The position numbers were made by a program, and so were the translations under genes. From Planctomycetia bacterium (GTDB lineage: Bacteria > Planctomycetota > Planctomycetia > Pirellulales > JALHLM01): a stretch of DNA of 32,239 nucleotides. The stretch is taken from contig JAWXBP010000248.1 of NCBI GenBank assembly GCA_034440135.1, positions 1 through 32,239 of the forward strand, in the 5' to 3' direction. The notes below the pieces were generated by a model. That model ran no database searches. It saw only the letters and a program-made list of their open reading frames with translations, and was not told the origin of the DNA. Positions 3,367 to 21,785 of this stretch are shown in pieces. Numbering within the stretch: the stretch's first letter is position 1; every line of letters begins with the position of its first letter.

Positions 3367-6300
3367 TTAGAGACGAATTGTGTCGATCAAGCGCCGGCGG
3401 CCGCGCGTCGTTGGCAATGCACTGAACACCGTGGCGCCGCTTGATTCCAAATCGGCAAACGCCTGATCCCGGGCGGCGACGACTGGATTCGACGAGGTTC
3501 CTCCTGCGGCGCGAAGCTGCTGGCCCACGGCTTCGAGTTCGTAGAGCACCGTCGCGGTCGTGCCGGGCGTGGTCGACATGGTCAAGGTTCCGGCGCCATT
3601 CGCCGCACCGGAGGCGACGGTCGTGCCATTGCGGGAAAGCTCGTAAGTACCCGCCGCGGCAAGTTCATCGAAGACCAGCGTGAGCGTCACGCTCGCGGAC
3701 GACGCCATGACTTTGAATGACGATGCGGCATTCACCGGTTCGACGGTCGCCGTACCGCCGGAAACCGCGACATGCAGAGGGACGCGTTCCACAAGCGCCT
3801 CAGCTTCCAGGCCGGTGAGCGCGGACGTCACCACGAAGGTCGACCCGGTTGAAGTGACCGTGTTGATGTCGCCCGACGCCGCTTCGCCGTCTTCGTCAAA
3901 CAGCGAGTAGATTGCTCCGAGCGCGTCGCTGAACGTGACGATGCTGTATTGATCGAGATCGAGAAGTACCGCGTCCTGACCGCTGACCGCGAGCGGTGTG
4001 GAAGCGGTGGAAAGTCCCCGTACCTTGAGCTTGGTGTCCAGCGAAACGGCATTGTCGCGGAACACATTGTTTCTCGCCCACTCGAACAATACGGTATTCC
4101 CTTCACCATTGTTGAGGATCGTGTTGCCGGCGAACGTGTTGGCGTCGGATTCGCGAGCGCGGACCGCGTAGCCGCCGTTGTTGGCGATGGTATTGCCGGT
4201 GAAGACGTTTAATTTGGGTCGACCGTCATCGCCCGGGCTGGGCGGATCGGATCCCTGAAAGAAGCGGATGCCTTGATCCAGGTTGTCGCTGAAGACGTTG
4301 TTTTCGATGAGATTCTCGGCCGCGCCGACCGTAAAGCGGATGCCGTGCAGATTGAACCGTGCGGTGTTGTTGCGAATGACGTTGTAACGGCTGTCGAAGA
4401 TGGCGATCCCGGTATCGGCGTTGCCGAGCGTGATGTTGTCCTCGATCAAGGCGTAGTCGGTACTGCGATGCAGCATGATGCCGTTGCCGCCGTTGTTGTT
4501 GCTGATATTGCCGGCGATCGTAATGTGATCGCAGCGCTTCGAGCCGATGATGCCGTGCGTGCCGTTGTCGTGCACGTAGTTGTTGGTGATGGTGAGATAG
4601 TCGGAGTCGTCGTGCGGATCGAATCCGTAGGCGACGTTGTAGGCCAACTCGTTGCCGTCCCACAGGCCCCCTTGGTGGCCGTAGGTGAAGACGCCGAAGT
4701 AATTATGGTGGATGTAGTTGTTCAGAATGTCGCCGTAGACGTTGACGACGTCGTACAGTTCGTAGTTCGGTCCGGCCTCGCCGATCACTTTCCAGGACAG
4801 TCCATAGGCTTCGCTGTTGTGCGAGCCGAGGTAGCCGATCTCGCTGTCGACGATGTCCATTCGGGATTCAAGCGGCGTGACGCCATCCGCCGCCAAGCTC
4901 GAACGGACGCGAATGTAAGCGCGGCCGAAAAAGTCGTACTCGGTGTCCGGCCCGTTCACCGCGTTATTCCACGAGGTGACGTAAGTCGAGCGGATATCGA
5001 CCGTGCCATAGTCGCCACGAATCTCGACAATCGCGTTCGTCGCGAGCGTGTTTTCGCTGCGCAGGCGCAGTTGATTGACGTCCCCGCCGATGGCGGTCCC
5101 GTGTAGCAGCAGCGCGCCGCCGTTGATGATGCGAATATTCGCGTCCAGCTTCCAAATTGCCGCGCCGGCGTCGACCAGCGCCAGCGGCGCGCTGGGCACC
5201 AGGTATTTGATGTCGGACAGCGTCGCCGTGTCGCCGTCGATGTAAATGATGTTCGACGTCGCCGAATAGCTGACAAAGGCCGCCAGCACCACAATGTTGG
5301 ACTGTTTGCCGGTCGCGCCAGTTGTCGTGTCCGTGACGACGATCGCCCGGTTCTGCGCCGTGTTGCGCAGCACTGCCGTGAACTCCTTCGCGCCCGCATC
5401 CACCGGAGTGAACGTGTACGGCGCCGGCAGGATGGCATTAGTGTCGCCGCTGGTAAAGGCAATTGTGCCCACGTAGTTCAGCACGACATTGCCATAGACA
5501 TCGAGCGCGGAAACGCTCAGCGGATGCGCGTCGCCGGCAATCGTCGGCGAAGTGAAGCCCTCGACTTTAAAGGCCGCCAGGTCTGCGTGGACCACGGTTC
5601 CGGCCCTGACCGTCGTGAAAACGCCTGAGGCGATGTCCGTGAAGGTCAGTGTTTGCGGACCCGCCGTTTTCAACGTGACGCTGATTTGTTTGCTACCGGC
5701 GTCCGCCGACGTCATGGTGACGCTGCCTGGCACTCCGCCAAAAGGATCGGACGTGGTGACTGAAACCGTTCCAACGTAGCTCTGAAACACGCCGCCACCG
5801 ACATCGAGCGCGCCGATGGTAACCGTCTGCGTCGCGCCCGCGGTGCTGATTGGCGCCGTTCCGGTGGCGCTGAACCCCGTCAATCCATGTGCGACGACAG
5901 TGATACCGGTCAGGCTCTTGTTGAAGCCTCCTGCCGTGTCAGTCGCTTTCACCCAGACGCCAGTGTCGCCGGTCACGAGCGTCACCGGCAACGTGGCGAC
6001 GCCGGCATTCGCCGTGGTGAAGCTGAAGTTCGGCGGCAGGATTGCGGCCGCGTCCTTGCTCGTGATCTGCACTGTGCCGGCGTAGCCGGTGGCGACGTTG
6101 TTATAAGCGTCGAGCGCCGTGACGGTCAGCCCATATTGCTGGCCGGCGTCGGCGACGGACGGAATTCCATCCAGCGCGAGCTTCGACGCGGCGCCTGGAA
6201 TAATGCTGAATGTCCGCACATAGACGCCGCCGGCGGTCCCATTGCCATCGCCGTCGAGCATTTCACCTTGCAGGTCGACAATCGTGTCATACGCGGTGAG

Positions 6301-6648
6301 ACGATAGGCGCCGACGGGAATCCGATCAAACTTGACCGTGGCGGTACGGCCGGAATACGTCGGCGTGGTCGGATAGAGCACGTCGTCCGAGGTGTTGAAC
6401 AAGGAATCTGCGCCGGCGGCGCGCAGATCGTAGTTCGACGATACAGCGCCGCCGGTGACGGTTTCACTGAACACGACTTTGATCGACGTGATGCCGGCCA
6501 CGATCGAGGGATTGCCGTTCAGCGCTGGCGTGGTCGACTCGACAAACGGAGCGCCCGCTAGCAGGCAGCGGCGCTCGAGCGGCTCGCCGTGAAGGCGAAC
6601 GGAAGAGTTCAGGCAGGCAGGGACGCGGGAGGTTCGTCTGGAGCGCAT
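3367..6648 (-). CDS. algG: Surface mannuronan C5-epimerase-like protein: LEPR-XLL, three Ig-like repeats, AlgG/AlgE-type beta-helix
   Basis: Counted from the ATG at 6648, the protein has 1093 residues. An in-frame GTG at 6747 would add 33 atypical residues. Residues 21-32 (GEPLERRCLLAG) are the planctomycete LEPR-XLL motif of large surface proteins. About 35-135 is a Big/Ig-like domain, followed by three similar domains of about 100 residues to about 455, each with an 'ALD.Y.N.V..Y.GT' core. About 460-830 is a right-handed parallel beta-helix with many 'N.I..N' turns. It contains 'SEIGYLGSHNSEAYGLSW' and Y674-GFDPHDDSD (D677, H679). The YGFDPH segment is the active-site signature of alginate C5-epimerases (AlgG DPHD, AlgE YGFDPHE). 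The C-terminal ~200 residues are Ala/Thr/Val-rich beta-domains. It is the last gene after algD in the same orientation. The likely role is converting mannuronate to guluronate in exported polymer. Another uronan as substrate is possible. Confidence 0.8.
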   Translation of the reverse strand: MRSRRTSRVPACLNSSVRLHGEPLERRCLLAGAPFVESTTPALNGNPSIVAGITSIKVVFSETVTGGAVSSNYDLRAAGADSLFNTSDDVLYPTTPTYSGRTATVKFDRIPVGAYRLTAYDTIVDLQGEMLDGDGNGTAGGVYVRTFSIIPGAASKLALDGIPSVADAGQQYGLTVTALDAYNNVATGYAGTVQITSKDAAAILPPNFSFTTANAGVATLPVTLVTGDTGVWVKATDTAGGFNKSLTGITVVAHGLTGFSATGTAPISTAGATQTVTIGALDVGGGVFQSYVGTVSVTTSDPFGGVPGSVTMTSADAGSKQISVTLKTAGPQTLTFTDIASGVFTTVRAGTVVHADLAAFKVEGFTSPTIAGDAHPLSVSALDVYGNVVLNYVGTIAFTSGDTNAILPAPYTFTPVDAGAKEFTAVLRNTAQNRAIVVTDTTTGATGKQSNIVVLAAFVSYSATSNIIYIDGDTATLSDIKYLVPSAPLALVDAGAAIWKLDANIRIINGGALLLHGTAIGGDVNQLRLRSENTLATNAIVEIRGDYGTVDIRSTYVTSWNNAVNGPDTEYDFFGRAYIRVRSSLAADGVTPLESRMDIVDSEIGYLGSHNSEAYGLSWKVIGEAGPNYELYDVVNVYGDILNNYIHHNYFGVFTYGHQGGLWDGNELAYNVAYGFDPHDDSDYLTITNNYVHDNGTHGIIGSKRCDHITIAGNISNNNGGNGIMLHRSTDYALIEDNITLGNADTGIAIFDSRYNVIRNNTARFNLHGIRFTVGAAENLIENNVFSDNLDQGIRFFQGSDPPSPGDDGRPKLNVFTGNTIANNGGYAVRARESDANTFAGNTILNNGEGNTVLFEWARNNVFRDNAVSLDTKLKVRGLSTASTPLAVSGQDAVLLDLDQYSIVTFSDALGAIYSLFDEDGEAASGDINTVTSTGSTFVVTSALTGLEAEALVERVPLHVAVSGGTATVEPVNAASSFKVMASSASVTLTLVFDELAAAGTYELSRNGTTVASGAANGAGTLTMSTTPGTTATVLYELEAVGQQLRAAGGTSSNPVVAARDQAFADLESSGATVFSALPTTRGRRRLIDTIRL

Positions 6649-6801
6649 ATCAAGGGATTCCGGATTTGAGAAAGGGCGTCCTTGCGGGAATAGATCGGTG
6701 CGCCGACCGCCGGCGGGGGCCGCCGGGCATCCGAGCCCGACGACCACCAGGCAGGCAGTTCTTTGAACAAATCAACGATGAGTACGACGGGCGGCGGCCC
6801 G

Positions 6802-8217
6802 CTATGCACGCCGCGCCACGGCGGCCGCGGCGCGTGGCCGGGGCGACTTCACGCGTTTCAACGATTTATGCGACCCGCTGAGAGCCACGGTCGGCACGTC
6901 CACGTCGGCGACGGACTCCGCGTGCGCGGCGATGGTTCGGCCGGCGCCGGTCAGATCGATGACCATGGGGGGACATTCCATGCTGCACGCGACGTCAAAC
7001 AAGTCGTTGTCGTCGCGCGTTAGCACCAGCGCGTCGGCATGCGCCAGCAACTCTTCGGCGGTGCCGACCAGGCGATTGGCGAGATGCGGAATGTGATGCT
7101 CGATGTAATCCCGATTCGCCCCCGTCAGTCGCGCCGTCTTCACAGCGGCGTCGAGGATTCGCAAGTCGTACCCCTTGCCGATCAGGTATTCGGCGATCGT
7201 GACCATCGGACTTTCACGCAAGTCGTCGGTGCCTGGCTTGAAGGCCAGCCCGTCCATGGCGATGCGGCGATGGCCATTGAGATGCAGCACCGCATCGTAA
7301 GCGCGATGTTTGTGCGCTTCGTTGCTGAGACCAATGGATCGCAGCAACGGCGTGTCCACGCAATGCTTGGTCGCCAGCGAAACCACGGCGCTCAAGTCTT
7401 TCGGCAGACAAGAGCCGCCGTAGGGCATGCCGGGACGAAGGTATGCTGGCGAGATGTTCAACTTGCGATCCATCGTGAGCAATCGCATGACGGCGCGGCC
7501 GTCGACGCCCAGTTCCGAGCAGAGCGAGCCGACTTCGTTGGCGAAGGCGACCTTCATCGCGTGGAACACATTGCAGAGCGTCTTGAGCATTTCCGCCTGC
7601 TTATACTGCACCCATTCGATCCGCTCCGGATCGACGGCCATCAGCGCGGCAATGGCGCCTTTTTCCACGTCGGGCTGACCGTCAGCCGTGCCGACCACGA
7701 CGAGCGGCGGGTCGAAATAATCGCGCACGGCAGTGCATTCGCGGAGATATTCCGGGACGATCACGATGCTCACATGGCCGTTGGATTTTCCTGTTGGGCC
7801 TAGGATCGCTGGAACGAGCAGCCCTTCCACCGTGCCCGGCGCGACCGTGCTGCGCATGATGACGAGGTGCGGCTCCGTCTTCTTGCTGAGCGCCGCGCCG
7901 ATAGCCTTCGCGGTGGCCATCACCGCGGACAGATCGTGCGAACCGTCGCGGCCGGTCGGCGTGCCGACGCAAATGAGCGTGGCGTCCGTGTCCAGTACCG
8001 CTTGCTCCGCGTTGGTGGTGGCGGTGATCCGCTTGGCGAGATGCCCTTCGGTCAACAACTCGTCGACTTGCGGCTCGACGACCGAGGCGATGCCGTTGGC
8101 GATCGCATTCACTTTGGATTCCACGACGTCGACGCCGATCACGTGATGACGCAGACGAGACAAACAGGCGACGCTGACGCAGCCGACGTAGCCCAATCCG
8201 AAGACGCTAACTCTCAT
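6802..8217 (-). CDS. algD: GDP-mannose 6-dehydrogenase (AlgD-type nucleotide-sugar dehydrogenase)
   Basis: A 471-residue cytoplasmic enzyme of the UDP-glucose/GDP-mannose dehydrogenase family. It performs a two-step NAD-dependent oxidation of the sugar C6 alcohol to a uronate. The Rossmann start MRVSVFGLGYVGCVSVACLS, 'TLICVGTPT', 'STVAPGTV', 'VPEYLRE' and the catalytic cysteine C270 in 'YLRPGMPYGGSCLPKDLSAV' are all visible. The LRPG..(F/Y)GGSCLPKD form is typical of AlgD, which makes GDP-mannuronic acid. UDP-glucose dehydrogenases usually have 'GPG.GGSCFPKD'. The start overlaps the stop of the alg8-like gene by four bases (ATGA), indicating translational coupling. The last ~25 residues are a basic, Ala/Arg-rich tail beyond the usual fold. 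Family is certain; the GDP-mannose preference is inferred from motif and neighbours. Confidence 0.88.
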   Translation of the reverse strand: MRVSVFGLGYVGCVSVACLSRLRHHVIGVDVVESKVNAIANGIASVVEPQVDELLTEGHLAKRITATTNAEQAVLDTDATLICVGTPTGRDGSHDLSAVMATAKAIGAALSKKTEPHLVIMRSTVAPGTVEGLLVPAILGPTGKSNGHVSIVIVPEYLRECTAVRDYFDPPLVVVGTADGQPDVEKGAIAALMAVDPERIEWVQYKQAEMLKTLCNVFHAMKVAFANEVGSLCSELGVDGRAVMRLLTMDRKLNISPAYLRPGMPYGGSCLPKDLSAVVSLATKHCVDTPLLRSIGLSNEAHKHRAYDAVLHLNGHRRIAMDGLAFKPGTDDLRESPMVTIAEYLIGKGYDLRILDAAVKTARLTGANRDYIEHHIPHLANRLVGTAEELLAHADALVLTRDDNDLFDVACSMECPPMVIDLTGAGRTIAAHAESVADVDVPTVALSGSHKSLKRVKSPRPRAAAAVARRA

Positions 8218-9962
8218 CGATTCAACTCCTGGGGATTCCGAAAAGTGATGGCGGAAGTTTCGAGGGAATGCACGGCGCTGGCGTCATGCTCGGCAATCGG
8301 CCTAGCGCCGAAAAACAATTTGGATTCAAGCAGCTCCGGTTCCAGATGCACCGCGAGTTCCAATGACGCTCGCTTCGTGGTGATCAGCGGCAACTCGTGG
8401 AGGAACGGAATGAACTGCGTTACCGCGCCCACGCTCAACACGAAGGCTGTCACTGCGACGCAGCAATAGAAAGTCGCTAGTCGGCGCCGCAGACCCGCGA
8501 ACGGTACGGAGCGCGACGAATCGAGCGTGCGGTTGCCGCGATTGAGCCAGGTCTGCTTGACCGGGTGGAACACGACCCAGACCTTCACGGCGGCCCCTAC
8601 CCATTCCGACGCGACTTGCAACGGGATGTACCAGAGCGAGATTCGCCGGCTGTGTTTCCAGGCCGACGCCACGCGGAACGTGCGTGTCGCCAGTAGCCAC
8701 AGCACATAGCTCGCGGTGATTCCCCAGCGGCCGTGCCAGATGCTCAGCAGCATGCCGGTCGGCCCGATCAGCACCGTCCAAAAAGAAATCTTCTGATCGA
8801 CGCAACAGAGCCAGGGAAAAAGACCGAGTCGTTGAGGACCAAGCGACATCGCACGGCCGGAATTGCGAAGCATATTGCCCGACCAGCGTTTGAGATTGGC
8901 CACGGCGCGATGGAACGGATTTTCGTTCACCGCTTCATAGGTCGTGACCATCGCGTCGGGGACATATAGCGTTTGGTAACCGTTGGCGGAGAGCCAATAC
9001 CAGGAGCTTTTGTCATCCCCGGAGAACATCTGGTATTCGCCGAACAGCCAGTTGTGCAGGTTGTCGCTTTCGATCTGCTCGATGAAGCGCTCGCTGGTGA
9101 CGACGTCGGCGCGGAACACCGAGAAGCGCCCAGTGAGGCAGAGGAGATGTTTCGATAAGGACACCGAACACATGTAGAGATGACGTTGCCCAAAGCGGAG
9201 CTTGATCCATTCCGTGTACCACATGGGGGCTTCAATCACGGCGCACTCGTTCGTCGTGACGGCGCCGACCTTGAGATCGAGCCGGAACATCGGCAGCACC
9301 TTGGCAAAGGCGCCCAGGTCCGGCGCGCTATCGCCGTCCATCAGTACGACCACGCCGTCAGGATCCACGCCCATCGCGGCGATGTGCTTCAAGCCCGAGG
9401 CGATCGCAGGTCGTTTCCCACAGTCGCCGCGCAGCAGCACCAATTCCGGCGCGCCGTTGATAGTCCAGGCGTCCCTTTCTGAATCCACGGCAGTGCGGAA
9501 CTCTCTCTCCACCGCCACGTCGTCCTCCGGCGATCCGGTGACGAACACGAGCCGCGGCGATCGCTTCAAGCCGGTGAGTTGGCCGAATTCTTTGACGACG
9601 GCCCAGATCACCGCCCGAGTAATCGCGGAGCGCTCGCGGTAGGTCGTCGCCAAGACGACAACGTCGGTAACTCCGCCTTGCGCTTGTACGGCACGCCGTG
9701 CGGCGGCTGCCCAGCGGGGATAGACGATGTAGCGGTAGATGATGGCGCGAACGCAATGCAGCAAGCCCCAGCCCCAGCGCCAAATGCCGATCAATCCCAG
9801 AGCGATCCAAAGTCCCGTGGATTGCCGCGACTCAATCTCGGTCTCCAACGTCATCGCAGCGCCCAAGCCGACGCACAGCATGACGATCATCATGCCGCAC
9901 TGGTACTTCCAGTCCGCAATGCGTTCCGGCGGGATCGAATTAGCATCCGGCGTCGGTGACAT
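8214..9962 (-). CDS. alg8: Alg8-like membrane glycosyltransferase family 2 (putative mannuronan synthase)
   Basis: A 582-residue inner-membrane processive glycosyltransferase. Two N-terminal membrane segments (about 22-40 and 50-75) precede a cytoplasmic GT2 domain containing 'VLATTYRER', D209-G-D211 (nucleotide-sugar/metal binding) and G315-D-D317-K in 'QMFSGDDKSSWYWL' (catalytic base region). 'NLKRWSGNMLRN' (R359-W360) corresponds to the (Q/R)xxRW acceptor-gate motif. Further membrane segments follow at about 390-408, 413-428 and 442-465. The LTGRFSVFRA, SGDDKS, TLYVPDA and KRWSGNMLRNSGRA run closely resembles Pseudomonas Alg8, which polymerises GDP-mannuronate while exporting the chain. 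It is about 90 residues longer than Alg8, with an extra C-terminal membrane helix (about 494-516) and tail. It sits between the Alg44-like and algD genes. A different uronan or mannan product is possible. Confidence 0.85.
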   Translation of the reverse strand: MSPTPDANSIPPERIADWKYQCGMMIVMLCVGLGAAMTLETEIESRQSTGLWIALGLIGIWRWGWGLLHCVRAIIYRYIVYPRWAAAARRAVQAQGGVTDVVVLATTYRERSAITRAVIWAVVKEFGQLTGLKRSPRLVFVTGSPEDDVAVEREFRTAVDSERDAWTINGAPELVLLRGDCGKRPAIASGLKHIAAMGVDPDGVVVLMDGDSAPDLGAFAKVLPMFRLDLKVGAVTTNECAVIEAPMWYTEWIKLRFGQRHLYMCSVSLSKHLLCLTGRFSVFRADVVTSERFIEQIESDNLHNWLFGEYQMFSGDDKSSWYWLSANGYQTLYVPDAMVTTYEAVNENPFHRAVANLKRWSGNMLRNSGRAMSLGPQRLGLFPWLCCVDQKISFWTVLIGPTGMLLSIWHGRWGITASYVLWLLATRTFRVASAWKHSRRISLWYIPLQVASEWVGAAVKVWVVFHPVKQTWLNRGNRTLDSSRSVPFAGLRRRLATFYCCVAVTAFVLSVGAVTQFIPFLHELPLITTKRASLELAVHLEPELLESKLFFGARPIAEHDASAVHSLETSAITFRNPQELNR

Positions 9963-10133
9963 TTAAGGGTCTCGTGGTGCGGTGGCGAAGTGCGCGCAGT
10001 TCCAGACAGCGTCAACATTGCCGCACTTTTGCAAGTACAGAACGTGAGCGCGGCAAACCTTGGGATTGCAACACACTCCAAAGGAGTCGCAGGCGGGGCG
10101 CGATCGAGGCGGGCGAAAGCGCTAGGCGGGCGC

Positions 10134-11312
10134 TTACTTTTCAGCTACGCGCGGAGCGGGCTGGAACCAAGCGGATAGGGCCGCGAGTGGCGGCGGTTGA
10201 TCGGTGCCGATGCCGACCATCGCGGAGAGACCCGGCATCAACCGGACGCCTGGCTCGGCGGGCAACATGATTTGCACGGCGACCTTTGAAGTATCAGTCG
10301 CCTGCATCGGTTGACGCGTGTTCGCGGCCGCGCTTTGCAACTCGCCGTCGGAGAGCACGCCAATGGCTTTGACACGTCCTACGATGACGCGTTCTGGATA
10401 GGCTGCGAAACGCACATCCACGGCGCGATCGACTTGCACGTCGTCCAGAGCGGATTCGTCGACCCAGGCTTCCACCCAGAGCCGATCCCCCGTCCAGAGT
10501 GCAACAATCGGATAGCCGACGCGAACGCTAGCACCGGCCTCGGCGAGCCGCTGGGCGACCCAACCGTTTTCCGGAGCGCGAATCACGGTCGAGTCGAGGT
10601 CGGCCTGCGCCGTCGCGAGCTTGGCCTTCGCTACGTTGATTTCTTCGGCCAGCACGCTCAGCCTGGCCACGCGCACTTCAAGGCCCTGGAGCGCCACGCG
10701 ATCGTTGTCGTTGTCGCTCTGCGCGGCGGAGTGCTGGGCCTCGACGGCGAGGTGATTCGCCATCGCGGTTTCGTGTTGCAGGTGAATGTCATCGGATTCG
10801 CTGCGCGATAGCGTCCCCGGGCGGGTGATCCGCGTGATCCGATCGACCTCGTTTCCCCAGCGCTTTACGGCGCTCTGGGCGGCGGTAATATTGGCTTTCG
10901 CCGCTTGGAGTTGCGCGCTTGAGGCGGCCAGCGAGAGCGCCAAGGACTGGCGATCGACTTCGAGCATTTTCCGCTCGTTGTCGAGCGTGTCGGTGGCCCG
11001 CTGCAATTCGGCCTTCGCTTGCTGTAACTGGGCCAGTTGCCATTGATCTTCGAGACGCGCGAGCACGTCTCCTTTGAAGACCCGCTGGTCGGGCTCCACG
11101 TCGACCGTCGCGATGCGACCCTCGATGCGGGCGCCGACTCGCGAAACGACTCCCCGGACGATCGCGTCTCGGGTGACGACATGGTCGTAACGGTAGGCCA
11201 CCCAACTGCCGACCAACCACAACAGCGCGACGCACGCCGTGACCAACAAAAGACTTCTTCTCCACCAACGTCCGTGCTTCCAGCGACCGGATTTCTCCGT
11301 GTTCGACTGCAT
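10134..11312 (-). CDS. HlyD-type membrane-fusion protein, Alg44-like but lacking PilZ
   Basis: A 392-residue protein with a short basic cytoplasmic tail, one membrane helix (about 18-41, SLLLVTACVALLWLVGSWVAY) and a periplasmic HlyD-like part. That part has a barrel-sandwich half ('ARIEGRIATVDVEPDQRV' followed by KGDVLARLED), a coiled coil (about 90-235), the second half ('STVIRAPENGWVAQRLAEAG') and a beta-barrel. Pseudomonas Alg44 has the same periplasmic architecture plus an N-terminal PilZ domain that binds c-di-GMP and is needed for Alg8 activity. Only about 17 residues precede the helix here, so no PilZ can fit. It is the first gene of the alg8-algD-algG set, which supports a polymer synthesis or export role. 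A GGGGG-type ribosome site lies about ten bases before the ATG. It could also be a generic efflux adaptor, but no transporter is adjacent. Confidence 0.75.
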   Translation of the reverse strand: MQSNTEKSGRWKHGRWWRRSLLLVTACVALLWLVGSWVAYRYDHVVTRDAIVRGVVSRVGARIEGRIATVDVEPDQRVFKGDVLARLEDQWQLAQLQQAKAELQRATDTLDNERKMLEVDRQSLALSLAASSAQLQAAKANITAAQSAVKRWGNEVDRITRITRPGTLSRSESDDIHLQHETAMANHLAVEAQHSAAQSDNDNDRVALQGLEVRVARLSVLAEEINVAKAKLATAQADLDSTVIRAPENGWVAQRLAEAGASVRVGYPIVALWTGDRLWVEAWVDESALDDVQVDRAVDVRFAAYPERVIVGRVKAIGVLSDGELQSAAANTRQPMQATDTSKVAVQIMLPAEPGVRLMPGLSAMVGIGTDQPPPLAALSAWFQPAPRVAEK

Positions 11313-11878: not shown

Positions 11879-13114
11879 TCAGAAGTCGCACTGCACGATG
11901 GAGCAATCGTCGTCCAGCACGCCGGGTCCGTGCAACGCGCCGATATGCGCCAAGAGTTCGTCGAGTGAGTTCGACGTCGCACGATGTTCAGCGACAAATT
12001 CGATCATTTCCGGCAGCGTCCAGGTGCTGCCGTCGAGACATTGAATTTCGAAGGCGCCGTCACTGAAGATGAGCAAGGACGCTGGTTCGCTGAGCTGCGT
12101 AGATACGTTCTCGAAACCCATGTCCATGCCGAAGCCCACCGATGGCCCGGTCGATTCCAACAGAATCGGCGCCGCGGAGCCCATGAATAGCGCCGCTGGC
12201 GGGTGGCCTGCGCCGGCGTGAATCAACGTCCGCGTGCTGGGCCGATAGACGCCATACCAGATCGTAAAATACTTGCCGTCGTGCTTGTCCATATCGAAGG
12301 CCAGGCACAATCCGTCGAGCACTTGCGCGGGATCGCGGAAATCGACATTCGGCAAACTTTGTGAGCCGATCACGTTCATCGCCGAGACCGACATCAGCGA
12401 CGCCCCGACGCCATGCCCGCTGACGTCGAGCAAGTAGAGGCAGAACTGGTCGTCGTCGAGCCAATGATATCCGAAGGAATCTCCGCCCAGCGACAACGAC
12501 GGTACGAACCGCCAGTCGGTGCGGACTGGCCCCTCCGTGAGCGGTTGCGGCAAGAGTGAGCGAACGTAGTTGGCCGCCTGCTCGATCTCGTCGGCGAGTT
12601 GCCGGCGGCTTTCGTCCAAGCGGTGATACGCTTCATTTCGCTCGCGCAGGGCGATATATCCACGGGAGTGGTAGCGAATCCGCGCGATCAGTTCCAGCTT
12701 GTCGGGCAACTTCACGACGTAGTCGTTCGCACCGAGGGCAAACGCCTCGGCCTTCACGGCAGGGTCTTCCTTCGTCGAGAGTACGATCAAAGGCACGTCA
12801 CGGGTGCGCGGATTTGCGCGAAAGAACTTTACGAGTGTCAGCCCGTCGACCTCGGGCATGACGAGGTCTTGCAGGATGACCGTCGGCCCGGTTTCGTTCG
12901 CGCGGCGCAAGGCCTCGGTCGGGTCGGAGCAATAGTGAAACACGATGTCGCGCTCGTCGGCCAGCATGCGTCGGATCGACTCCGCGACGAGCGGCTGGTC
13001 GTCGACCAAAAGCACGGTGACCGGAATGCTGGCGACGGGCGAATCGGACGCCTTCGAGGTATTCAATGGTGCGGCCATAGTGTGCAAGCGATGAGAGTGG
13101 ACGGGCGCCTGCAT
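11879..13114 (-). CDS. Response regulator: WspR-like receiver fused to PP2C/RsbU serine phosphatase
   Basis: A 411-residue soluble regulator. The receiver (about 31-150) has the acidic pair D38/D39, phospho-acceptor D83 in 'VILQDLVMPEVDG', S113/T114 and K135. Its text, including 'VILQDLVMPEVDGLTL', 'VLSTKEDPAVKAEAFALGAN', 'VKLPDKLELIARIRYHSR' and the linker 'GYIALRERNEAYHRLDESRR', is strikingly like the receiver and stalk of Pseudomonas WspR as I remember it. A GGDEF domain should follow. Instead there is a SpoIIE/RsbU-type PPM phosphatase (about 180-411) with metal ligands D212 (LGGDSFGY), D230 (LLDVSGHGVGASL), D352 (FSDGAFE) and D402/D403 (LDDDCSIV). Such phosphatases remove phosphate from Ser/Thr of STAS proteins. 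It is divergent from the chemosensory operon, so the CheA is the likely phospho-donor. An alternative start at 13078 drops twelve residues. Confidence 0.9.
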   Translation of the reverse strand: MQAPVHSHRLHTMAAPLNTSKASDSPVASIPVTVLLVDDQPLVAESIRRMLADERDIVFHYCSDPTEALRRANETGPTVILQDLVMPEVDGLTLVKFFRANPRTRDVPLIVLSTKEDPAVKAEAFALGANDYVVKLPDKLELIARIRYHSRGYIALRERNEAYHRLDESRRQLADEIEQAANYVRSLLPQPLTEGPVRTDWRFVPSLSLGGDSFGYHWLDDDQFCLYLLDVSGHGVGASLMSVSAMNVIGSQSLPNVDFRDPAQVLDGLCLAFDMDKHDGKYFTIWYGVYRPSTRTLIHAGAGHPPAALFMGSAAPILLESTGPSVGFGMDMGFENVSTQLSEPASLLIFSDGAFEIQCLDGSTWTLPEMIEFVAEHRATSNSLDELLAHIGALHGPGVLDDDCSIVQCDF

Positions 13115-13380
13115 TATGCTTGGCGGCGCCCGGCTGAGATAGCGCCAGGGCGGCGCAGCGGCCGCCCGCCGACATCAGACCGTTACAATCGGACCGCGAG
13201 CGATCGGTTTTGGCCCAGGACCGGCGTCGCAAGCCGGAAACGTCCGTCCTGAACAGTGGTGAGGCGGCCCGCGGTAACTACAATGGGAGGTTGCTTCTCC
13301 TTTTCCGCCCGATCTCGGCGATCCCCGAGTTTTGTACGCCGGCGACCAGCCGTGGTGGCTGTTTGCCGCGAAAGTCGACC
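13115..13380. promoter_or_regulatory. Divergent intergenic region between the PP2C regulator and the chemosensory operon
   Basis: This 266-bp gap separates oppositely transcribed genes, so it should hold both promoters. Two TACAAT hexamers, matching a -10 box in five of six positions, read on the plus strand at 13184-13189 and 13279-13284. Neither has a convincing -35 box at normal spacing. No long inverted repeat was seen. The regulatory role is inferred from gene orientation. Confidence 0.4.
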
Positions 13381-14100
13381 ATGGCCATGAATCTCGACGC
13401 CGCGATGTTGGAGATGTTTCGCTCCGAAGTCGAGACGCATATGGCGGCGCTCAGCGAAGGCTTATTGGCGCTCGAAAAGCAGCCGCGGCGGAGCGAGTTG
13501 TTCGAACCCATGATGCGCGCGGCCCATTCCATCAAAGGGGCGGCGAAGATCGTCGGCCTGCCGGCCGCGGTACAGGTAGCGCACGCGATCGAGGATTGTT
13601 TCGTCGCGGTGCGCGAGAACCGCGTTGCCATGAGCAGCGGTTTGGTCGACGTACTGCTGGCCGGAGTTGACTTGCTGGGTCGCGCCGCGGACGTCGACGA
13701 CGCGGGGCAAGTGTCGCTGGCGGAAGGCGATCCGCAGATTCTGCAAGCCGTTTCACGCATCGCCACGGCGATGCGTGAGAATGCCGCGGGCGCGCAGGAC
13801 AATCAAATACAGCAATTGACGTTACGGGCGCCTGCGCAATTGACGGGATCCTGGGCCGCGTCACAACGCGATCGCATTGTCGCGGCGCTCGCTGCAGGTG
13901 GAACTCCGGCGCAATTTGATCTCAGCGACGTAGAGACCATCGACGCGGCCGCCATTGGTTTTCTGGCCCTCGCATCCGGATCAACTCAAGCGCGCGAGTC
14001 AACCAAGTTCACGACTTTTGGAGCGCGCCGCGAACTTGCACAATTGCTCCGCGCCGCGGGATTGAGCCTCGCGCCCCATTCTGCGCCGGGAGGGGCCTAA
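13381..14100 (+). CDS. Hpt-STAS fusion protein of the chemosensory operon
   Basis: A 239-residue soluble protein starting at the ATG at 13381; a second ATG at 13387 is equally plausible. Residues 1-105 form a histidine phosphotransfer helix bundle like the CheA P1 domain, with phospho-site H49 in 'MRAAHSIKGAAKIVGLP'. Residues about 145-233 look like a STAS domain, with 'FDLSDVETIDAAAIGFLALA' matching the usual 'D(S/T)SG.G.L' helix cap. The serine positions are Ala here (A189, A190), so the STAS part cannot be phosphorylated in the usual place. It is followed after three bases by the cheA gene. The role is inferred: it may take phosphate on H49 and bind a partner through STAS, linking the CheA relay to the PP2C branch. 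The STAS call is less certain than the Hpt call. Confidence 0.75.
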   Translation: MAMNLDAAMLEMFRSEVETHMAALSEGLLALEKQPRRSELFEPMMRAAHSIKGAAKIVGLPAAVQVAHAIEDCFVAVRENRVAMSSGLVDVLLAGVDLLGRAADVDDAGQVSLAEGDPQILQAVSRIATAMRENAAGAQDNQIQQLTLRAPAQLTGSWAASQRDRIVAALAAGGTPAQFDLSDVETIDAAAIGFLALASGSTQARESTKFTTFGARRELAQLLRAAGLSLAPHSAPGGA

Positions 14101-14103
14101 CGC

Positions 14104-16932
14104 ATGGCAGGGCGCGCGCCGCAATCGGCGGAGTTCATCGCGGAGGCCAAAGAACACTTGGCCGACGTGTGCGACCATTTGCTGCGCTGCGAACGGGCCA
14201 CGGGCGACGCCGCACGCGTGACGGTCGAAGGACTGTTGCGGGCCGTGCATTCCGTGAAAGGGGGCGCGGGCTTCTTCGGGTTCAGCATCATCGAAACCAT
14301 TGCGCATCGGATGGAATCGCTGTTGGAAAGAATGCAAAGCGGAGAGATCGTCCGCGACGGCCAGGCAGTCGACGTATTGCTAGCGGCCACCGACCGCATC
14401 GGAGCGCTCCTGGATGACGCCGATCACAGCAACGAGGCGGATATCGCCGCGCTGCTCGCACGGCTGGACGAGATTCAAACCACTCGCGAGCCGATTTTGT
14501 CCAGCGATGCGGTGGAATCCGCAACACGCGATCCGGTTGCCGCGAAATCTCAAATCGTCGAATTGGAGCTCGATCTTCTACGTTGTGGCGCAGCCGGCGT
14601 ATCGCCGCTGGTGTTGTGGGAACGACTCGCTCAGTTAGGCGAGATCGCCGCAGGAAGAATCGCACCTGCGGCAAGAACGCTTGCCGAATGGTCTCCGCAG
14701 GATCCGGTCATTTGGGAAGTTCGCCTCAGCACGTCCCTCGACAAGGAAGACTGCTTGCGGCGACTTGATTTGCCGTCGGCAACGGCGGAGCAAGCGCCAA
14801 CGGAAACCGCACAAGCCACCGGCATTCCTAATTCTGCAGATTCGGAAGTCGCAGCTAAGCCCGCGCTCGATCGCGGTGGTACGATGCGCGTGCCGGTTGG
14901 GCTGGCCGATCAGTTGATGAATCTTGCCGGCGAACTCGTGCTGGTACGCAATCAGTCGCGGCAGGTCGCTGAATCGAACCAGCAGCTGCCGGCAGCCGTC
15001 ATGCAGCGGCTCGATTCCGTGACCCGGGCGTTTCAGGACACAATCCTCCAGACGCGCATGCAGCCAGTCGGCGTGCTGTTCAATAAGTTCCCGCGTTTGG
15101 TGCGCGATTTGGCGCGTCAACTTGGCAAGCAGTTGGAACTGCGGATCGAAGGCGCCGAAGTCGAACTCGACAAAACGATCCTCGACGCGATCTCCGATCC
15201 GCTGACCCACCTGGTGCGCAACGCTTGCGATCATGGCGTCGAATCGCCTGGCGAACGCATGAAACACGGAAAAGCGGCGGTCGGCCGCGTAACGCTCTCC
15301 GCGCATCGCCTGGGCGATGAAATTCGCATCGCCGTTTCGGACGACGGCGCGGGCATTGATAGCGCCGCGGTTCGCAAGCAGGCCATCAAGCAGGGGCACA
15401 GGACGGAACAATCGCTCGCACAACTTTCCGGTTCCGACGTGCTGGCGCTGGTGTTGCTGCCGGGACTCTCTACCGCGGAAACTGTCAGCGAGGTCTCCGG
15501 GCGCGGCGTCGGGATGGACGTCGTGAAGTCGAACCTGGCGCAGCTCGGCGGGACGATTGAGATTGAATCAGCCCTCGGCCAGGGCACGACGTTCACATTG
15601 CGACTGCCGCTCACGCTGGCCATCATTCCCAGCTTGCTCGTGACGGCCGCCGGGCGCCGGTACGCCATTCCGCAAAAGGACCTGGAGGAATTGGTGTACG
15701 TCGGCCCGGGTCAGTCGCGCGCCCGTATCGAACGAGGGCCGGAACAGGACTTCGCGCGCCTCCGCGATCGATTGCTGCCGTTGGTGAATCTCGCGCAACT
15801 GCTGCGAAAGCTGCAAGGCGATCGCGCTGACGATCAAGTCGATACGACTTCGCCGGACTCGCCGTCGTTGTTCGCGGTGGTCAAATCGGGCGCACGGCGA
15901 TTTGCCTTGGTGATCGACAGCGTGCTGTCCAGCGAGGAAATTGTCGTCAAGCCAATGCATTCTCGCTTGCGCGGCCTCAAAGTGTTTTCGGGCGCGACGA
16001 TTCTCGGCGACGGCCATGTCGCGCTGATCTTAGACCCCGCCGGCGTCGCCACAACGGCGCAGCTTCGTTTCGGGAGCGATTCCGCCGCATCGCGACACGA
16101 CCACTCTGCGGAAAAGCAGGAAACGCAGGCCGTGCTGTTGTTGCGGACCGCGAGCGGTGACAGCTACGGCGTCCCAGTCTTTCAAGTTCGCCGTCTGGCC
16201 ATGTTGCGACGCGCGGGCTTCGAGCGACTGTCGTCCGGTTGCTTTCTCGCCATCGACGGCAGGCCAACGCGGCTGATTTCAATCGACGGCCGCGACGTTT
16301 CCCAAGACGGCGCGGAATTCGCCTTTGCCCTTTTGCCGCGCGACGTAGTTCGCGCGGAAGCCGTCGTAGTGGACGAAGTGCTGGGCACGGAACTCGTCGA
16401 CCTGCGACGGCTCAGTCCCTTGCCGGACCAACCCCATGCGCTGGGCATCGCGCAACTGCGCGGGCGCACGACGCCCGTGGTCGATCTTTACCGCCTGCTT
16501 GGCAACGAACAAATGGAGACGATGTCGGCACGACCCGCGGCGAAGAAGAGAATCCTGTTGGTCGACGATACGCAGTTCTTTCGCGAAGTGGTCGGCGGCT
16601 ACCTGGAATCCGCTGGCTACGAAGTGGCGAAGGCGGAGCACGGCGCAGCGGCTTTGGAGCGGCTCGCCAGTGAGTCGTTCGACCTCATCGTCTCTGACCT
16701 GGAAATGCCCGTGGTGGATGGTTGGACGCTGGCCAAAGAGGTGCGCGGAGGAAGTTCCCAACAACAGCAACTCGCAATGCTGGCCTTGTCTACACTTTCC
16801 GCCGAACAGGCCGAAGCGAGCGCCTTGGCGAGCGGTTTCGACGCCTTTCAAGTCAAGCTCGATCGCGCGACGTTGTTGGCGACCGTCGCCTCGCTGCTGG
16901 CGAAAAACCGCGTTCAGGGGGTGCAGCGATGA
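14104..16932 (+). CDS. cheA: Hybrid chemosensory histidine kinase CheA-REC (WspE-like) with two CheW-like domains
   Basis: A 942-residue cytoplasmic kinase. Domains in order: Hpt/P1 (1-125) with H49 in 'LLRAVHSVKGGAGFFGF'; a region about 147-224 that resembles a response-regulator docking (P2) domain; dimerisation P3 ('MRVPVGLADQLMNLAGELVL', 261-340); and an ATPase with N373 (VRNACDHGVE), D414-G-A-G and GRGVGMD (467-472). A CheW-like P5 follows (about 500-650), then a second degenerate CheW-like domain (about 673-800, 'YGVPVFQVRRLAMLRR') and a C-terminal receiver (about 813-936) with D821/D822, D865 and K918. CheA with its own receiver is the WspE/FrzE pattern, seen in arrays that control non-flagellar outputs. 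GGGAGGGG precedes the ATG. The stop overlaps the cheW start by four bases. Confidence 0.92.
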   Translation: MAGRAPQSAEFIAEAKEHLADVCDHLLRCERATGDAARVTVEGLLRAVHSVKGGAGFFGFSIIETIAHRMESLLERMQSGEIVRDGQAVDVLLAATDRIGALLDDADHSNEADIAALLARLDEIQTTREPILSSDAVESATRDPVAAKSQIVELELDLLRCGAAGVSPLVLWERLAQLGEIAAGRIAPAARTLAEWSPQDPVIWEVRLSTSLDKEDCLRRLDLPSATAEQAPTETAQATGIPNSADSEVAAKPALDRGGTMRVPVGLADQLMNLAGELVLVRNQSRQVAESNQQLPAAVMQRLDSVTRAFQDTILQTRMQPVGVLFNKFPRLVRDLARQLGKQLELRIEGAEVELDKTILDAISDPLTHLVRNACDHGVESPGERMKHGKAAVGRVTLSAHRLGDEIRIAVSDDGAGIDSAAVRKQAIKQGHRTEQSLAQLSGSDVLALVLLPGLSTAETVSEVSGRGVGMDVVKSNLAQLGGTIEIESALGQGTTFTLRLPLTLAIIPSLLVTAAGRRYAIPQKDLEELVYVGPGQSRARIERGPEQDFARLRDRLLPLVNLAQLLRKLQGDRADDQVDTTSPDSPSLFAVVKSGARRFALVIDSVLSSEEIVVKPMHSRLRGLKVFSGATILGDGHVALILDPAGVATTAQLRFGSDSAASRHDHSAEKQETQAVLLLRTASGDSYGVPVFQVRRLAMLRRAGFERLSSGCFLAIDGRPTRLISIDGRDVSQDGAEFAFALLPRDVVRAEAVVVDEVLGTELVDLRRLSPLPDQPHALGIAQLRGRTTPVVDLYRLLGNEQMETMSARPAAKKRILLVDDTQFFREVVGGYLESAGYEVAKAEHGAAALERLASESFDLIVSDLEMPVVDGWTLAKEVRGGSSQQQQLAMLALSTLSAEQAEASALASGFDAFQVKLDRATLLATVASLLAKNRVQGVQR

Positions 16933-17405
16933 GTCCGTCGATTCCCACTGAAGCGGCCGCCGCGCTGTATTGCACCTATTGGGTAAACCAGCAATGGTTC
17001 GGCGTTGATGCACAGTATGTGCGCGAGGTTCACGCGGTTACGGACCTGACCCCTGTGCCTGGCGCGCCCGCAGGAGCGGCGGGCTATGTCAATTTGCGTG
17101 GGCAATTGTTCCTGGTACTGGACGCCCGAGTGTTACTGCTTGGCGAAAGGCGAAGCAAGCAGGAAAGCACGCAGCTCGTCGTGTTTCGCGCGACCGCCGG
17201 CGAATCATTCGCCCTGTTAGTCGACGTCTTGGCCGACATGCTGTATGTCTCGGGCGATCAAATTGACGCGCCCGACGCCGATCGCCTGAACATCGCGCGC
17301 GATGGAGTCACCGTCGGGAGCGCACGCATGGAAGACGGACTTTTGACATTGATCGACCCTCGACAATTGCTGCCGGCAGTGTTTTCCGGCCCAGTGAAGA
17401 TATAA
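16929..17405 (+). CDS. cheW: CheW-type coupling protein
   Basis: A 158-residue single-domain CheW that tethers the CheA kinase to chemoreceptors. Visible features are the opening beta-strand 'YCTYWVNQQWFGVDAQYVREV', 'DLTPVPGAPAGAAGYVNLRG' (the conserved G..NLRG core), 'LFLVLDARVLL' and the second-barrel strands 'FALLVDVLADMLYV'. The ATG at 16929 overlaps the cheA stop (ATGA), with AGGGGG seven bases upstream, so translation is coupled. It is the only stand-alone CheW in the window; Wsp systems usually have two (WspB and WspD). The extra CheW-like domain inside CheA may compensate. Confidence 0.92.
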   Translation: MSPSIPTEAAAALYCTYWVNQQWFGVDAQYVREVHAVTDLTPVPGAPAGAAGYVNLRGQLFLVLDARVLLLGERRSKQESTQLVVFRATAGESFALLVDVLADMLYVSGDQIDAPDADRLNIARDGVTVGSARMEDGLLTLIDPRQLLPAVFSGPVKI

Positions 17406-17461
17406 CCGCTTCGAGACAACTGCTTCGCTCAGCGAATTCACCTCCCTTGACTTGAACCACC

Positions 17462-19720
17462 ATGCGCAACATCAGCTTAAAGTCCAAGATCGCGATTCTC
17501 GTCAGCGTACTCACCGCGACGGTACTGGCCGTGGCCATCGTCGGCGCCTGGGAACTGCGTCGCAACAACATCCAGATGCGGCAATTGGTGGACCGCAATG
17601 GACGGGCCATTGAACTGGCATCGCAGATCCGCGTCGGGCTGCTCGCGGCCGTTCGCAGAGAAAAAAATGCGGTGCTCGCGTCGGATGAGATTGCCGCGGC
17701 GAAGTTCGCGATGGATGTCGACAAGAGTGCCGACCAAGTCGAGACGCTCTCCCCGGAACTGGACTCGTTGATCGGCGAGATTGCCGGCGCCGGCGAAGAT
17801 TTCGCCGTGTTCCGCCGCGAATGGCAAAACCTCCGTACCAATCAAGCGGAGGTCTTGCGACTCGCGGTTCTGAACACGAACTCCAGGGCGTCGCGACTGC
17901 TTGCCGAAGATGTCGCCACGCGCATTGAATCGCTGGACCGAATCATGGCGGGCGTCGCACTGCGGGCAATGGCACAGCCCAGCGTCGACGGGACATCGTC
18001 GACTGCGTCGGGATCGTCCGATCGGCGCGAGCGTGCGGCGGAGTTGCGGTTAGCGTTCGCCCAGCTTGTCAATCGGCTGTATGCCCACATCAATGCCGAC
18101 GACGAAGCCGTGATGAATGAATTGGACGGCGAGATTGCGGCGACGCTGGGCAGCATTGACGCTTCGCTCGAAACGCTGCAGGCGTTCGCCGAGGATCGCG
18201 ACCGGCTGGAGCTTGGCCAAGCGGCGATGGAAGCGCGTGGGTTGCGCCGCGACGTGGCGGAGATTCAGAGCCTGTCACGCCAGAATACGAATGCGAAAGC
18301 GGTGAAGTTGACTTCGACGACCTCGGTTACGCAGGTCAACAAATGCGACGCGGCGCTGGCAGCACTTTTGGACAATCTCGGCCGCGCGGCGCAAGCCAAA
18401 CGGGACACTGCGCAGTCTGCGTTCTATCGCGCCGTCGCGATCACGGCCGGTACCGCGACTCTCGGCATCGCGGTCGCATTGATTCTTGGCCGTCTGATCG
18501 CCCGCTCCGTGACGGGACCGGTGGCTCAAGGCGTCGAGGTCGCGCATGCACTCGCGCAAGGAGATTTGACGCGGCGACTTCGAATGACGCAACGCGACGA
18601 GATCGGCCAACTGTCCTGCGCGATCGACCAGGCCGCAGAGAACTTCGCCGCCATTGTGGCGGAAATTCATGACGTGGCGGTGAAGATCGGCGGCTCCGCC
18701 AGCGAGTTGAGCGCGGTCTCGCATCAACTGCTTTCGCAGAGCGAGGAGATGTCGACGCAGGCCGGTTACGTGGCCGGCGGGACCGAACAGATGACGGCCA
18801 ACATCAATACGATGGCCGCCGCGGCGGAAGAAATGAGCATGAACGTGGCTTCGATCTCCTCGGCCAGCGAAGAGATCAGCGTCAATGTCGGCGCGATTTC
18901 CAGTTCCGCCACGCACACGTCGAGCAACGTCAACGCGGTCGTGGAAGGCATTCAAGACGCGGTGCAATCGTTCGAAACCGTGGCTGGCGACGCCCGGCAA
19001 GGCGCGCTGACGACGGCCAAGGCGGTGAATCTCGCCGCCAGCGCGACGAGCACGATGCACACGCTCGACCGCGCCGCCGGTGAAATCAATAAGGTCACCG
19101 AGATGATCAAGTTGATCGCCATGCAAACCAACCTGTTGGCCCTCAACGCCACGATCGAGGCCGCCTCGGCCGGAGAGGCCGGCAAAGGCTTTGCCGTCGT
19201 CGCCAATGAGATCAAGGAGCTCGCCAATCAGAGCGGTAAAGCGGCGGAAGACATCGCACGAATGATCGAGGGAATTCAGACCAATACCCGCGGCGCCGTG
19301 GCAGTCATTCAAGAAGTGGCCGCGACAATTCAGGAAGTCAACACCGCGAACACGCGCATTTCCCAGGCTACCGACGAGCAAACGCAGTTGGCGAACGCCA
19401 GCGCGGTAAAGCTCGACGCGGCCGGCAAGGGCGTTGGGCACATCGCGCAATCGATCACGGAAGTCGCCAAGGGCGCGAATGACATGTCGCGCAACGCGAG
19501 CGAAGCCGCCAAGGCGGCCAGCGACGTCTCCTACAATGCCAGCGAGGCCGCTCGGGCGGTACGCGATATCGCCAGCAATATTCGCGGCGTCAGCCAGGCC
19601 ACGCGCGACAACACGGCGAGCGCCCAGCAAGTGAATCAAGCCGCGGGCGGATTGCAAGGCATCGCCGCGAACCTGGAACGCCTGGTAGCCCGCTTTCGTT
19701 TGACGTCGGACAAGCGATAG
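17462..19720 (+). CDS. Transmembrane methyl-accepting chemoreceptor
   Basis: A 752-residue receptor. Membrane helix 1 is at about 9-29 ([20 protein letters not shown]) and helix 2 at about 322-345. The roughly 290-residue stretch between them is predicted helical and lacks PAS or Cache motifs, resembling four-helix-bundle sensor modules. A HAMP domain follows (about 345-400, '[20 protein letters not shown]' then '[12 protein letters not shown]'), then a long coiled-coil signalling domain. The hairpin tip at about 548-590 reads '[20 protein letters not shown]' followed by [13 protein letters not shown], the CheA/CheW contact site. The coiled coil is very rich in Ala/Ser heptads ('[16 protein letters not shown]', '[20 protein letters not shown]'). 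The ligand is unknown. By analogy with WspA it could sense surface contact or envelope state; that is inference. Confidence 0.92.
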
Positions 19721-19761
19721 AATGAACGACGTGGCGACCCTTCCCGGCCGGTCGATTTGAC

Positions 19762-20862
19762 ATGCCCGAACGCGCGCGAGTCCTGATCGTTGACGATTCG
19801 CGGACTTTTCGCGCCGGGCTGGAAGCCGCGCTCACCGGCGAAGAAGGCGTGGCGGTTGCCGGTTCAGTTTTTAACGGCGAAAGGGCGCTGGAATTCATTC
19901 GCGCGACGCCGCCAGACCTGGTGACGCTCGACGTCGACATGCCGGGCATGGACGGACTGCAAATCCTTCAGGCAATTCAGCAATTCAATCGCGGGCGACC
20001 GGCGTCGGCGGAAGTGGGCGTATTGATGCTGAGCGCCTTCACGCGCCGCGGCGCGGAGATCACCGTCCGCGCGCTGCAGGCCGGGGCGTTCGATTTCGTG
20101 ACCAAACCGAGCGGCACGTCCCCGGAAGATAGCATCGCCCAACTCAAACGCGAGGTCGTGCCTCGCGTGCGCTTGTTCATGGCGCGTCGCCATCAGCAGG
20201 ACAGCAAACGACTTTCCTTTGGTATGCCGGTAGCGCAATTGCCAAGTGCCACGGGCGAGCAGCGGCGCAAGCGGAACATTCAGGCGGTGCTGATCGGCTG
20301 CTCGACGGGTGGGCCGAAAGCCTTGGCTGCGCTGCTGCCAGAAATTGCCGCTGGACCCGACGCGCCGATCATTGTCGCGCAGCATATGCCGGCCGAATTC
20401 ACCAAGTCGCTCGCCGAGAGCCTGAGCCGACAGTGCCGCATTCCGGTCGTCGAAGCGATCGATGGCATGGCGATCGAATCCAGGACGACCTACATCGCGC
20501 CTGGCGGAAAACACCTGGTGTTGCGCCGCGATTCCCTGGGACTGCTGCGCGCCGGAACTAACGAGCAGCCGCCGGAAAGCGGCTGTCGCCCGTCGGCGAG
20601 CGTGTTGTTTCGCTCGGCGGCCGCGGTCCTGGGGGGCAACGCCGTGGCCATCGTCCTCACGGGCATGGGCAACGATGGCGCCGCGGGACTCGGTCCGTTC
20701 AAGCGAGCAGGCGGATATGTGATCGCGCAGGACGAGGCGACCAGCGTTGTTTGGGGGATGCCGGGCAGCGCCGTGACGGCAGGCGTCGTCGATGAAGTGT
20801 TGTCGCTCACGTCGATCGCCGCCGCAGTGCGCGCACTTTCCGCACCCGGGGGAGCGAGTTGA
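19762..20862 (+). CDS. cheB: Chemoreceptor glutamate methylesterase CheB with receiver domain
   Basis: A 366-residue two-domain CheB. The receiver (1-125) has D11/D12, phospho-acceptor D57 in 'LVTLDVDMPGMDG' and K115 in 'FDFVTKPSGT'. After a basic linker the methylesterase domain (about 172-362) carries the catalytic triad: S181 in 'IGCSTGGPKAL', H208 in 'VAQHMPAEFT' and D305 in 'LTGMGNDGAAGL'. It removes methyl groups from receptor glutamates and so adapts the array. In a Wsp-type layout this is the WspF position. WspF loss locks the pathway on in Pseudomonas, so this gene is a likely brake. No clear Shine-Dalgarno site precedes the ATG. Confidence 0.95.
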   Translation: MPERARVLIVDDSRTFRAGLEAALTGEEGVAVAGSVFNGERALEFIRATPPDLVTLDVDMPGMDGLQILQAIQQFNRGRPASAEVGVLMLSAFTRRGAEITVRALQAGAFDFVTKPSGTSPEDSIAQLKREVVPRVRLFMARRHQQDSKRLSFGMPVAQLPSATGEQRRKRNIQAVLIGCSTGGPKALAALLPEIAAGPDAPIIVAQHMPAEFTKSLAESLSRQCRIPVVEAIDGMAIESRTTYIAPGGKHLVLRRDSLGLLRAGTNEQPPESGCRPSASVLFRSAAAVLGGNAVAIVLTGMGNDGAAGLGPFKRAGGYVIAQDEATSVVWGMPGSAVTAGVVDEVLSLTSIAAAVRALSAPGGAS

Positions 20863-20864
20863 CC

Positions 20865-21689: not shown

Positions 21690-21785
21690 CGGATCGCGGC
21701 GACTGGTGCGCGTCGGTCGCTTGAACTACACTGTCGGGCACGCCCCATTCCTCAGCCGATTCGATTCTGGAAGCGAGAGTCCCGC

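Follow-up and report, generated by a model that had tools for sequence, protein, structure and literature searches.

A compact four-gene operon lacking PilZ in a planctomycete and its most likely role in making an alginate-like polymer

INTRODUCTION

Alginate is familiar as the gelling agent of seaweed. Its production by bacteria has been shown in two genera, and the locus described here raises the question of whether a planctomycete also has genes for such a polymer. The locus lies in a window of 32,239 nucleotides, the whole stretch of DNA that was analysed, which is one contig (JAWXBP010000248.1) of a 7.3 Mb Pirellulales genome that is 96% complete. A sequence-only reading of the window had proposed an alginate-type operon encoding an Alg44-like fusion protein, an Alg8-like synthase, an AlgD-type dehydrogenase and a beta-helix protein. 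This remains the best reading of the dehydrogenase, the synthase and the epimerase, while the Alg44 fusion part of it has to be withdrawn.

The open-access literature yielded no paper on planctomycete alginate genes. Putative alginate clusters are present in many genomes (PMC4444821) and SAR92 has been reported with alginate genes (PMC10877868). A catalogue from 1733 complete genomes lists 64 alginate operons, some of them atypical, lacking algKE or part of the algGXLIJF genes (PMC7112194).

RESULTS

The operon and its surroundings

The genes, their order, their families, predicted folds and motifs are established. The features, with the four genes in transcription order, are as follows.

10134-11312, minus strand: HlyD/EmrA-type membrane fusion (adaptor) protein; one TM helix, barrel-sandwich, long alpha-hairpin
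8214-9962, minus strand: Alg8-family GT2 polysaccharide synthase
6802-8217, minus strand: AlgD-type GDP-mannose 6-dehydrogenase
3367-6747, minus strand: open reading frame of the beta-helix protein, a mannuronan C5-epimerase homologue; likely gene 3367-6648, the ATG at 6648 being the likely start by comparison with locus L019
9006-9020, minus strand: GDDKS motif of the synthase, residues 315-319
7408-7410, minus strand: Cys270 codon in the GGSCLPKD motif of the dehydrogenase
4609-4629, minus strand: YGFDPHD active-site motif of the epimerase homologue, residues 707-713
11879-13114, minus strand: response regulator with SpoIIE-type PP2C phosphatase (Pfam), directly upstream of the operon; possible regulator
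13210-22166, plus strand: divergent chemosensory cluster (Pfam) of Hpt-STAS, CheA hybrid, MCP, CheB, CheR and STAS

As first read, the four open reading frames (392, 582, 471 and 1126 amino acids) are co-directional and in the order given, and the four-base overlap of the alg8-like and algD-like genes is found at 8214-8217. The domain scan of the window genes agreed with the earlier statement that algK, algE, algX, algI/J/F and algL are missing, none being present. A promoter scan found nothing.

The flanking genes in the profile scan of the window (PSCyt/PSD1, DUF1501, TIGR03009) are of planctomycete type. The nearest relative of the operon, L019, is in a second Pirellulales assembly and has all four genes in identical order with 86-97% identity, so the operon is more than a chance arrangement. 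It is preceded by the C-terminal end of the same response regulator gene as in the window. Given the planctomycete-type neighbours and this matching gene order and regulator end, an assembly artefact is unlikely.

The dehydrogenase

A sequence search of the PDB gave the P. aeruginosa GMD, 1mfz, as the best solved relative of the dehydrogenase (E 8e-111, 374 bits) and a UDP-glucose dehydrogenase as the next best (1e-61, 212 bits). A tree built with five solved enzymes put the window dehydrogenase on the GDP-mannose side of the split with 99% support, the placement of 1mfz inside that half being less firm (84-90). The motif GGSCLPKD is shared with AlgD, while the UDP-glucose enzymes have GGSCFPKD, and Cys270 lines up with the motif cysteine of P. 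aeruginosa AlgD (1mfz). The best match, the tree and the motif all uphold the AlgD assignment, and the enzyme clearly does not fall in a clade for another polymer. Clade and motif point to the conversion of GDP-mannose to GDP-mannuronate as its probable specificity.

The synthase

The synthase, a GT2 protein by Pfam, was correctly read as Alg8-like, showing 36% identity over 443 amino acids (2e-83) to a Pseudomonas-type Alg8. This reference comes from a genome whose AlgD shares 91% identity with P. aeruginosa AlgD and whose AlgG scores above the NCBIfam cut-off. GDDKS, also present in the Pseudomonas-type Alg8, and further residues invariant in the alignment of Alg8-like proteins are all present in the window synthase. 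Searches of the PDB with the single sequence and with a profile gave no match to a GT2 enzyme of solved structure at E<=0.01.

In the synthase tree the window protein pairs with Verrucomicrobiales (100/100) and next with cyanobacteria (92/87). The nearest neighbours of Pseudomonas Alg8 are rhizobial and roseobacter synthases, and those of Halomonas join next. The phylogeny thus keeps the protein in the Alg8 family but outside the clade holding Pseudomonas Alg8. The Halomonas Alg8-like synthases are nearer to that clade than the window synthase is, yet their genes stand beside those of UDP-glucose-type dehydrogenases, so that belonging to the Alg8 family is not enough to tell which polymer is made. 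For these reasons the synthase tree was rejected as proof of the product.

Alg8-like genes are widespread, occurring in at least 583 stretches of the genome collection, and most of the cyanobacterial ones have neither a dehydrogenase nor an epimerase gene seen adjoining. Planctomycete synthases occupy four separate places in the wider tree, and the synthase was found at E 1e-30 in only 3 of the 392 planctomycete genomes sampled. Horizontal transfer would be a simple explanation of this scattered and rare occurrence.

Several other arrangements were observed around Alg8-like synthases. Halomonadaceae loci L053, L052, L059, L075, L081 and L097 have the synthase and a PilZ-adaptor beside a UDP-glucose-type dehydrogenase (GGSCFPKD), with a PF05426 lyase in addition in L053; these clusters probably serve a uronate polymer other than alginate. 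Long C-terminal extensions are present on the synthases L027:3993-6110, L028:9791-12028 and L018:9108-11786. The extension in L027 matches the pectate-lyase-like beta-helix family PF12708 (1.8e-7), the other two being only suggestive. In an uncultured Pirellulaceae (L064:5121-8485) the gene of an Alg8-like synthase is followed by one whose product has a beta-helix and a polysaccharide lyase 14 domain, a pairing unlike that of the window.

The adaptor

The protein first described as an Alg44-like fusion has the expected TM helix and HlyD domain but no PilZ domain, Pfam finding HlyD_D23/HlyD_3 only; it is the counterpart of Alg44 without PilZ. No PilZ domain was found in the rest of the contig, and the two in the genome are on contigs C58 and C356. 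Alignment with Alg44-like proteins from L017, L050 and Pseudomonas begins at the TM helix, past their PilZ domain. BLAST gave no significant match to the Pseudomonas-type Alg44; a PilZ-bearing protein of another planctomycete operon matched with 24% identity (4e-12). In the AlphaFold model two helices of about 72 residues each, 90-162 and 170-240, form a long hairpin which the alignment shows to be absent from the Pseudomonas-type Alg44. The model has a mean pLDDT of 80 and a pTM of 0.50, the overall arrangement being unsure, and its top Foldseek match was EmrA (4tko, E 2e-23).

The epimerase homologue

The beta-helix protein does carry the C5-epimerase signature ascribed to it, being homologous to these enzymes in sequence, in predicted fold and in the YGxDPHD motif. 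A profile of seven relatives searched against the PDB matched only mannuronan C5-epimerases, AlgG coming first (1e-31 over about 335 residues). The structure predicted from the seven-sequence alignment had a pLDDT of 90, and its top four Foldseek matches were all AlgG structures (E 1e-14 to 1e-15). YGxDPHD is invariant in all seven family members. Tyr314, Asp317 and His319 of AlgG are conserved in the window protein; the position of Arg345 is variable in the family and is Lys here, with an invariant Arg adjoining. Active-site roles of the AlgG DPHD histidine and of Tyr314 have been described (PMC4444821).

The NCBIfam AlgG model scored the protein at 76 bits (2.6e-21) against a cut-off of 700, which the Pseudomonas-type positive control passes. 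Since the score is so far under the cut-off, the protein is placed by sequence in a family distinct from AlgG though alike in kind. Its beta-helix spans residues ~490-860 and is followed by C-terminal beta domains. It is preceded by an N-terminal module (~34-480), some 450 extra residues with internal repeats and no Pfam match, pointing to secretion or a place at the cell surface. A LEPR-XLL surface motif at the N-terminus scored 13.3 bits against a cut-off of 17 and was set aside as a hint only. Among the other NosD-like places in the genome the epimerase profile matched one only, weakly and without the motif.

AlgG-type Rhizobium plasmid proteins (L010:12606-16346 and L011:12596-16363) have about 700 extra N-terminal residues, with weak TPR matches in the former, which is perhaps an AlgK-AlgG fusion. 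Roseobacter plasmids (L013, L014, L016) carry algD, alg8 and nucleotidyltransferase genes together with AlgI- or lyase-family genes, and their beta-helix protein is without the YGxDPHD motif.

Related operons

The set of synthase, adaptor, AlgD and epimerase occurs again in L019, L020, L050 and L056, and compact clusters with part of it or with altered members were also found.

L020 (Verrucomicrobiales): synthase, PilZ-less adaptor, response regulator, AlgD, epimerase, PF14592 (PL6-type) lyase
L050 (Gammaproteobacteria): adaptor with a PilZ match below the Pfam cut-off, PF05426 lyase, synthase, AlgD, epimerase
L056 (Pseudomonadota): AlgD, adaptor with a PilZ-like pattern, PF05426 lyase, synthase, two epimerases, nucleotidyltransferase
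L038 (Gammaproteobacteria): Alg8-family synthase, adaptor, epimerase; algD frame not intact as read
L027 (Xenococcaceae, cyanobacterium): receiver-adaptor fusion, AlgD, synthase, epimerase-like protein with YGFDPHE and RTX repeats like AlgE

In the L027 fusion (489-2363) a response-regulator receiver domain is joined to an HlyD-type adaptor at the place where Alg44 has PilZ. The text-pattern scan of the loci for PilZ and DPHD misses divergent copies and, where loci are GC-rich, includes misread frames. Its blanks were for this reason not scored as absences, and occurrence of the epimerase was scored by profile scan instead. The lyase-family genes adjoining the set in three loci (L020, L050, L056) support a mannuronate polymer. 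Both lyase families include members with other substrates.

Precursor supply and export

The search of the genome for the algA function and a porin, proposed with the sequence-only reading, gave a match for each on other contigs. A GDP-mannose pyrophosphorylase gene is on C16 (TIGR01479, 2.6e-91, 307 bits, below the cut-off for the two-domain enzyme), and a PF13372 'alginate export' (AlgE-family) porin is on C496. The porin family was rejected as a diagnostic of alginate export as it occurs in 105 of 149 planctomycete genomes, and the C496 protein is a candidate exporter and no more.

DISCUSSION

What the operon probably makes

The compact four-gene set most likely makes an alginate-like sugar polymer. 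On the sequence evidence there is a good probability that it forms an operon for an alginate-type product in which a mannuronate chain would be made by the Alg8-family synthase with the long-hairpin adaptor and epimerised outside the inner membrane, with no PilZ gate. For substrate, product, export and regulation we infer the following route. GDP-mannose would be made by enzymes encoded elsewhere in the genome and oxidised to GDP-mannuronate by the AlgD-type enzyme. The synthase, judged by its family, would polymerise this and move the chain across the inner membrane, where the adaptor in Alg44's place may hold or guide it in the periplasm, with no c-di-GMP sensing of the Alg44 type. The beta-helix protein, probably exported, would turn part of the mannuronate into guluronate, as suggested by homology and the intact Tyr, Asp and His. 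To pass the outer membrane the chain would use a porin whose gene lies elsewhere. The response regulator/phosphatase system next to the operon is the probable means of control, and this is the weakest step. Counting against the reading as a whole are the place of the synthase outside the clade of Pseudomonas Alg8, the low AlgG score of the beta-helix protein with Lys at the Arg345 position, and the rarity of the synthase among the sampled planctomycete genomes.

The chemosensory cluster is a possible input to this regulator, its link to the operon being conjectural. As an observation in its own right, such a complete cluster opposite a response regulator-SpoIIE phosphatase resembles a chemosensory input to a partner-switch output. 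The PilZ-less adaptor, the receiver fusion of L027, the response regulator within the L020 cluster and the response regulator-phosphatase upstream of the window operon together suggest, from gene proximity, that phosphorylation takes over the controlling part of PilZ. Among the cyanobacterial members of the branch, most have no such regulator gene in the stretches seen. It is conceivable, if doubtful, that the Alg8-family branch of Pirellulales, Verrucomicrobiales and some cyanobacteria has lost the c-di-GMP gate of alginate synthesis and uses phosphorylation control instead.

Other explanations

The synthase might make a different polymer, such as a mixed chain with mannuronate or another uronate, on which the beta-helix enzyme acts. 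The separation of its clade from Pseudomonas Alg8 fits this, as does the evidence that Alg8-like synthases serve more than one polymer, those of Halomonas pairing with a UDP-glucose dehydrogenase. The operon, however, has no second glycosyltransferase or second sugar pathway, the epimerase family matches mannuronan epimerases only among solved proteins, and alginate-lyase-family genes are found in the related operons; a different polymer is thus unlikely. If the polymer is mannuronan, the beta-helix protein could instead make up for the absent AlgL, trimming the chain or setting it free as a lyase or as an enzyme with both epimerase and lyase activity. Its matches in sequence and in fold include an 'alginate epimerase/lyase' (8ja4/8jaz), but AlgG is much closer on both counts, and L020, L050 and L056 have the same protein together with a separate lyase-family gene. 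This makes the lyase role rather improbable, even with the profile search of the genome finding no lyase of the families PF05426 and PF14592.

That same negative result counts against the idea that the genes serve breakdown or modification of algal alginate and not synthesis. Planctomycetes are counted among algal polysaccharide degraders (PMC10877868), and the profile scan shows GH2 and aldose epimerase genes in the window. No role in breakdown is known for a membrane synthase or a GDP-sugar dehydrogenase, and a degradative function is very improbable. Synthesis of an alginate-type polymer is kept as the preferred reading.

If the product is alginate, Planctomycetota, and probably Verrucomicrobiota and some cyanobacteria, would join the two genera with demonstrated production. 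The polymer would be made by a much smaller gene set, raising the question of the minimum for synthesis and export and of how synthesis is switched without PilZ. A separate C5-epimerase family, useful for tailoring alginate, would also be added. The results carry the warning that Alg8-like genes alone are no proof of alginate.

Comparison with known systems

The operon of Pseudomonas and Azotobacter (algD-alg8-alg44-K-E-G-X-L-I-J-F-A) shares with the window an AlgD-type dehydrogenase, an Alg8-family synthase, an adaptor in the Alg44 place and a C5-epimerase or its homologue with DPHD. The window operon differs in having four genes in a different order, with no K, E, X, L, I, J, F or A. Its adaptor lacks PilZ and, unlike the Pseudomonas-type Alg44, has the long hairpin, and its epimerase homologue has a large N-terminal module. 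The secreted AlgE epimerases of Azotobacter are alike in the YGFDPH motif and in bearing extra modules, but Pfam found no RTX repeats in the window protein, which is closer to AlgG in sequence and fold.

The 'atypical' alginate operons (PMC7112194) are also compact and rearranged with export and acetylation genes missing; they are reported from deep-sea bacteria, and the available part of that source mentions neither planctomycetes nor loss of PilZ. The compact clusters L020, L050, L038, L056 and L027 resemble the window in their Alg8-family synthase, adaptor, DPHD/DPHE epimerase and AlgD-type dehydrogenase. They differ from it in the traces of PilZ in L050 and L056, in the receiver fusion and RTX-type epimerase of L027 and in the adjoining lyases of L020, L050 and L056. 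What is new here is a compact alginate-type operon without PilZ, a variant related to the Pseudomonas system.
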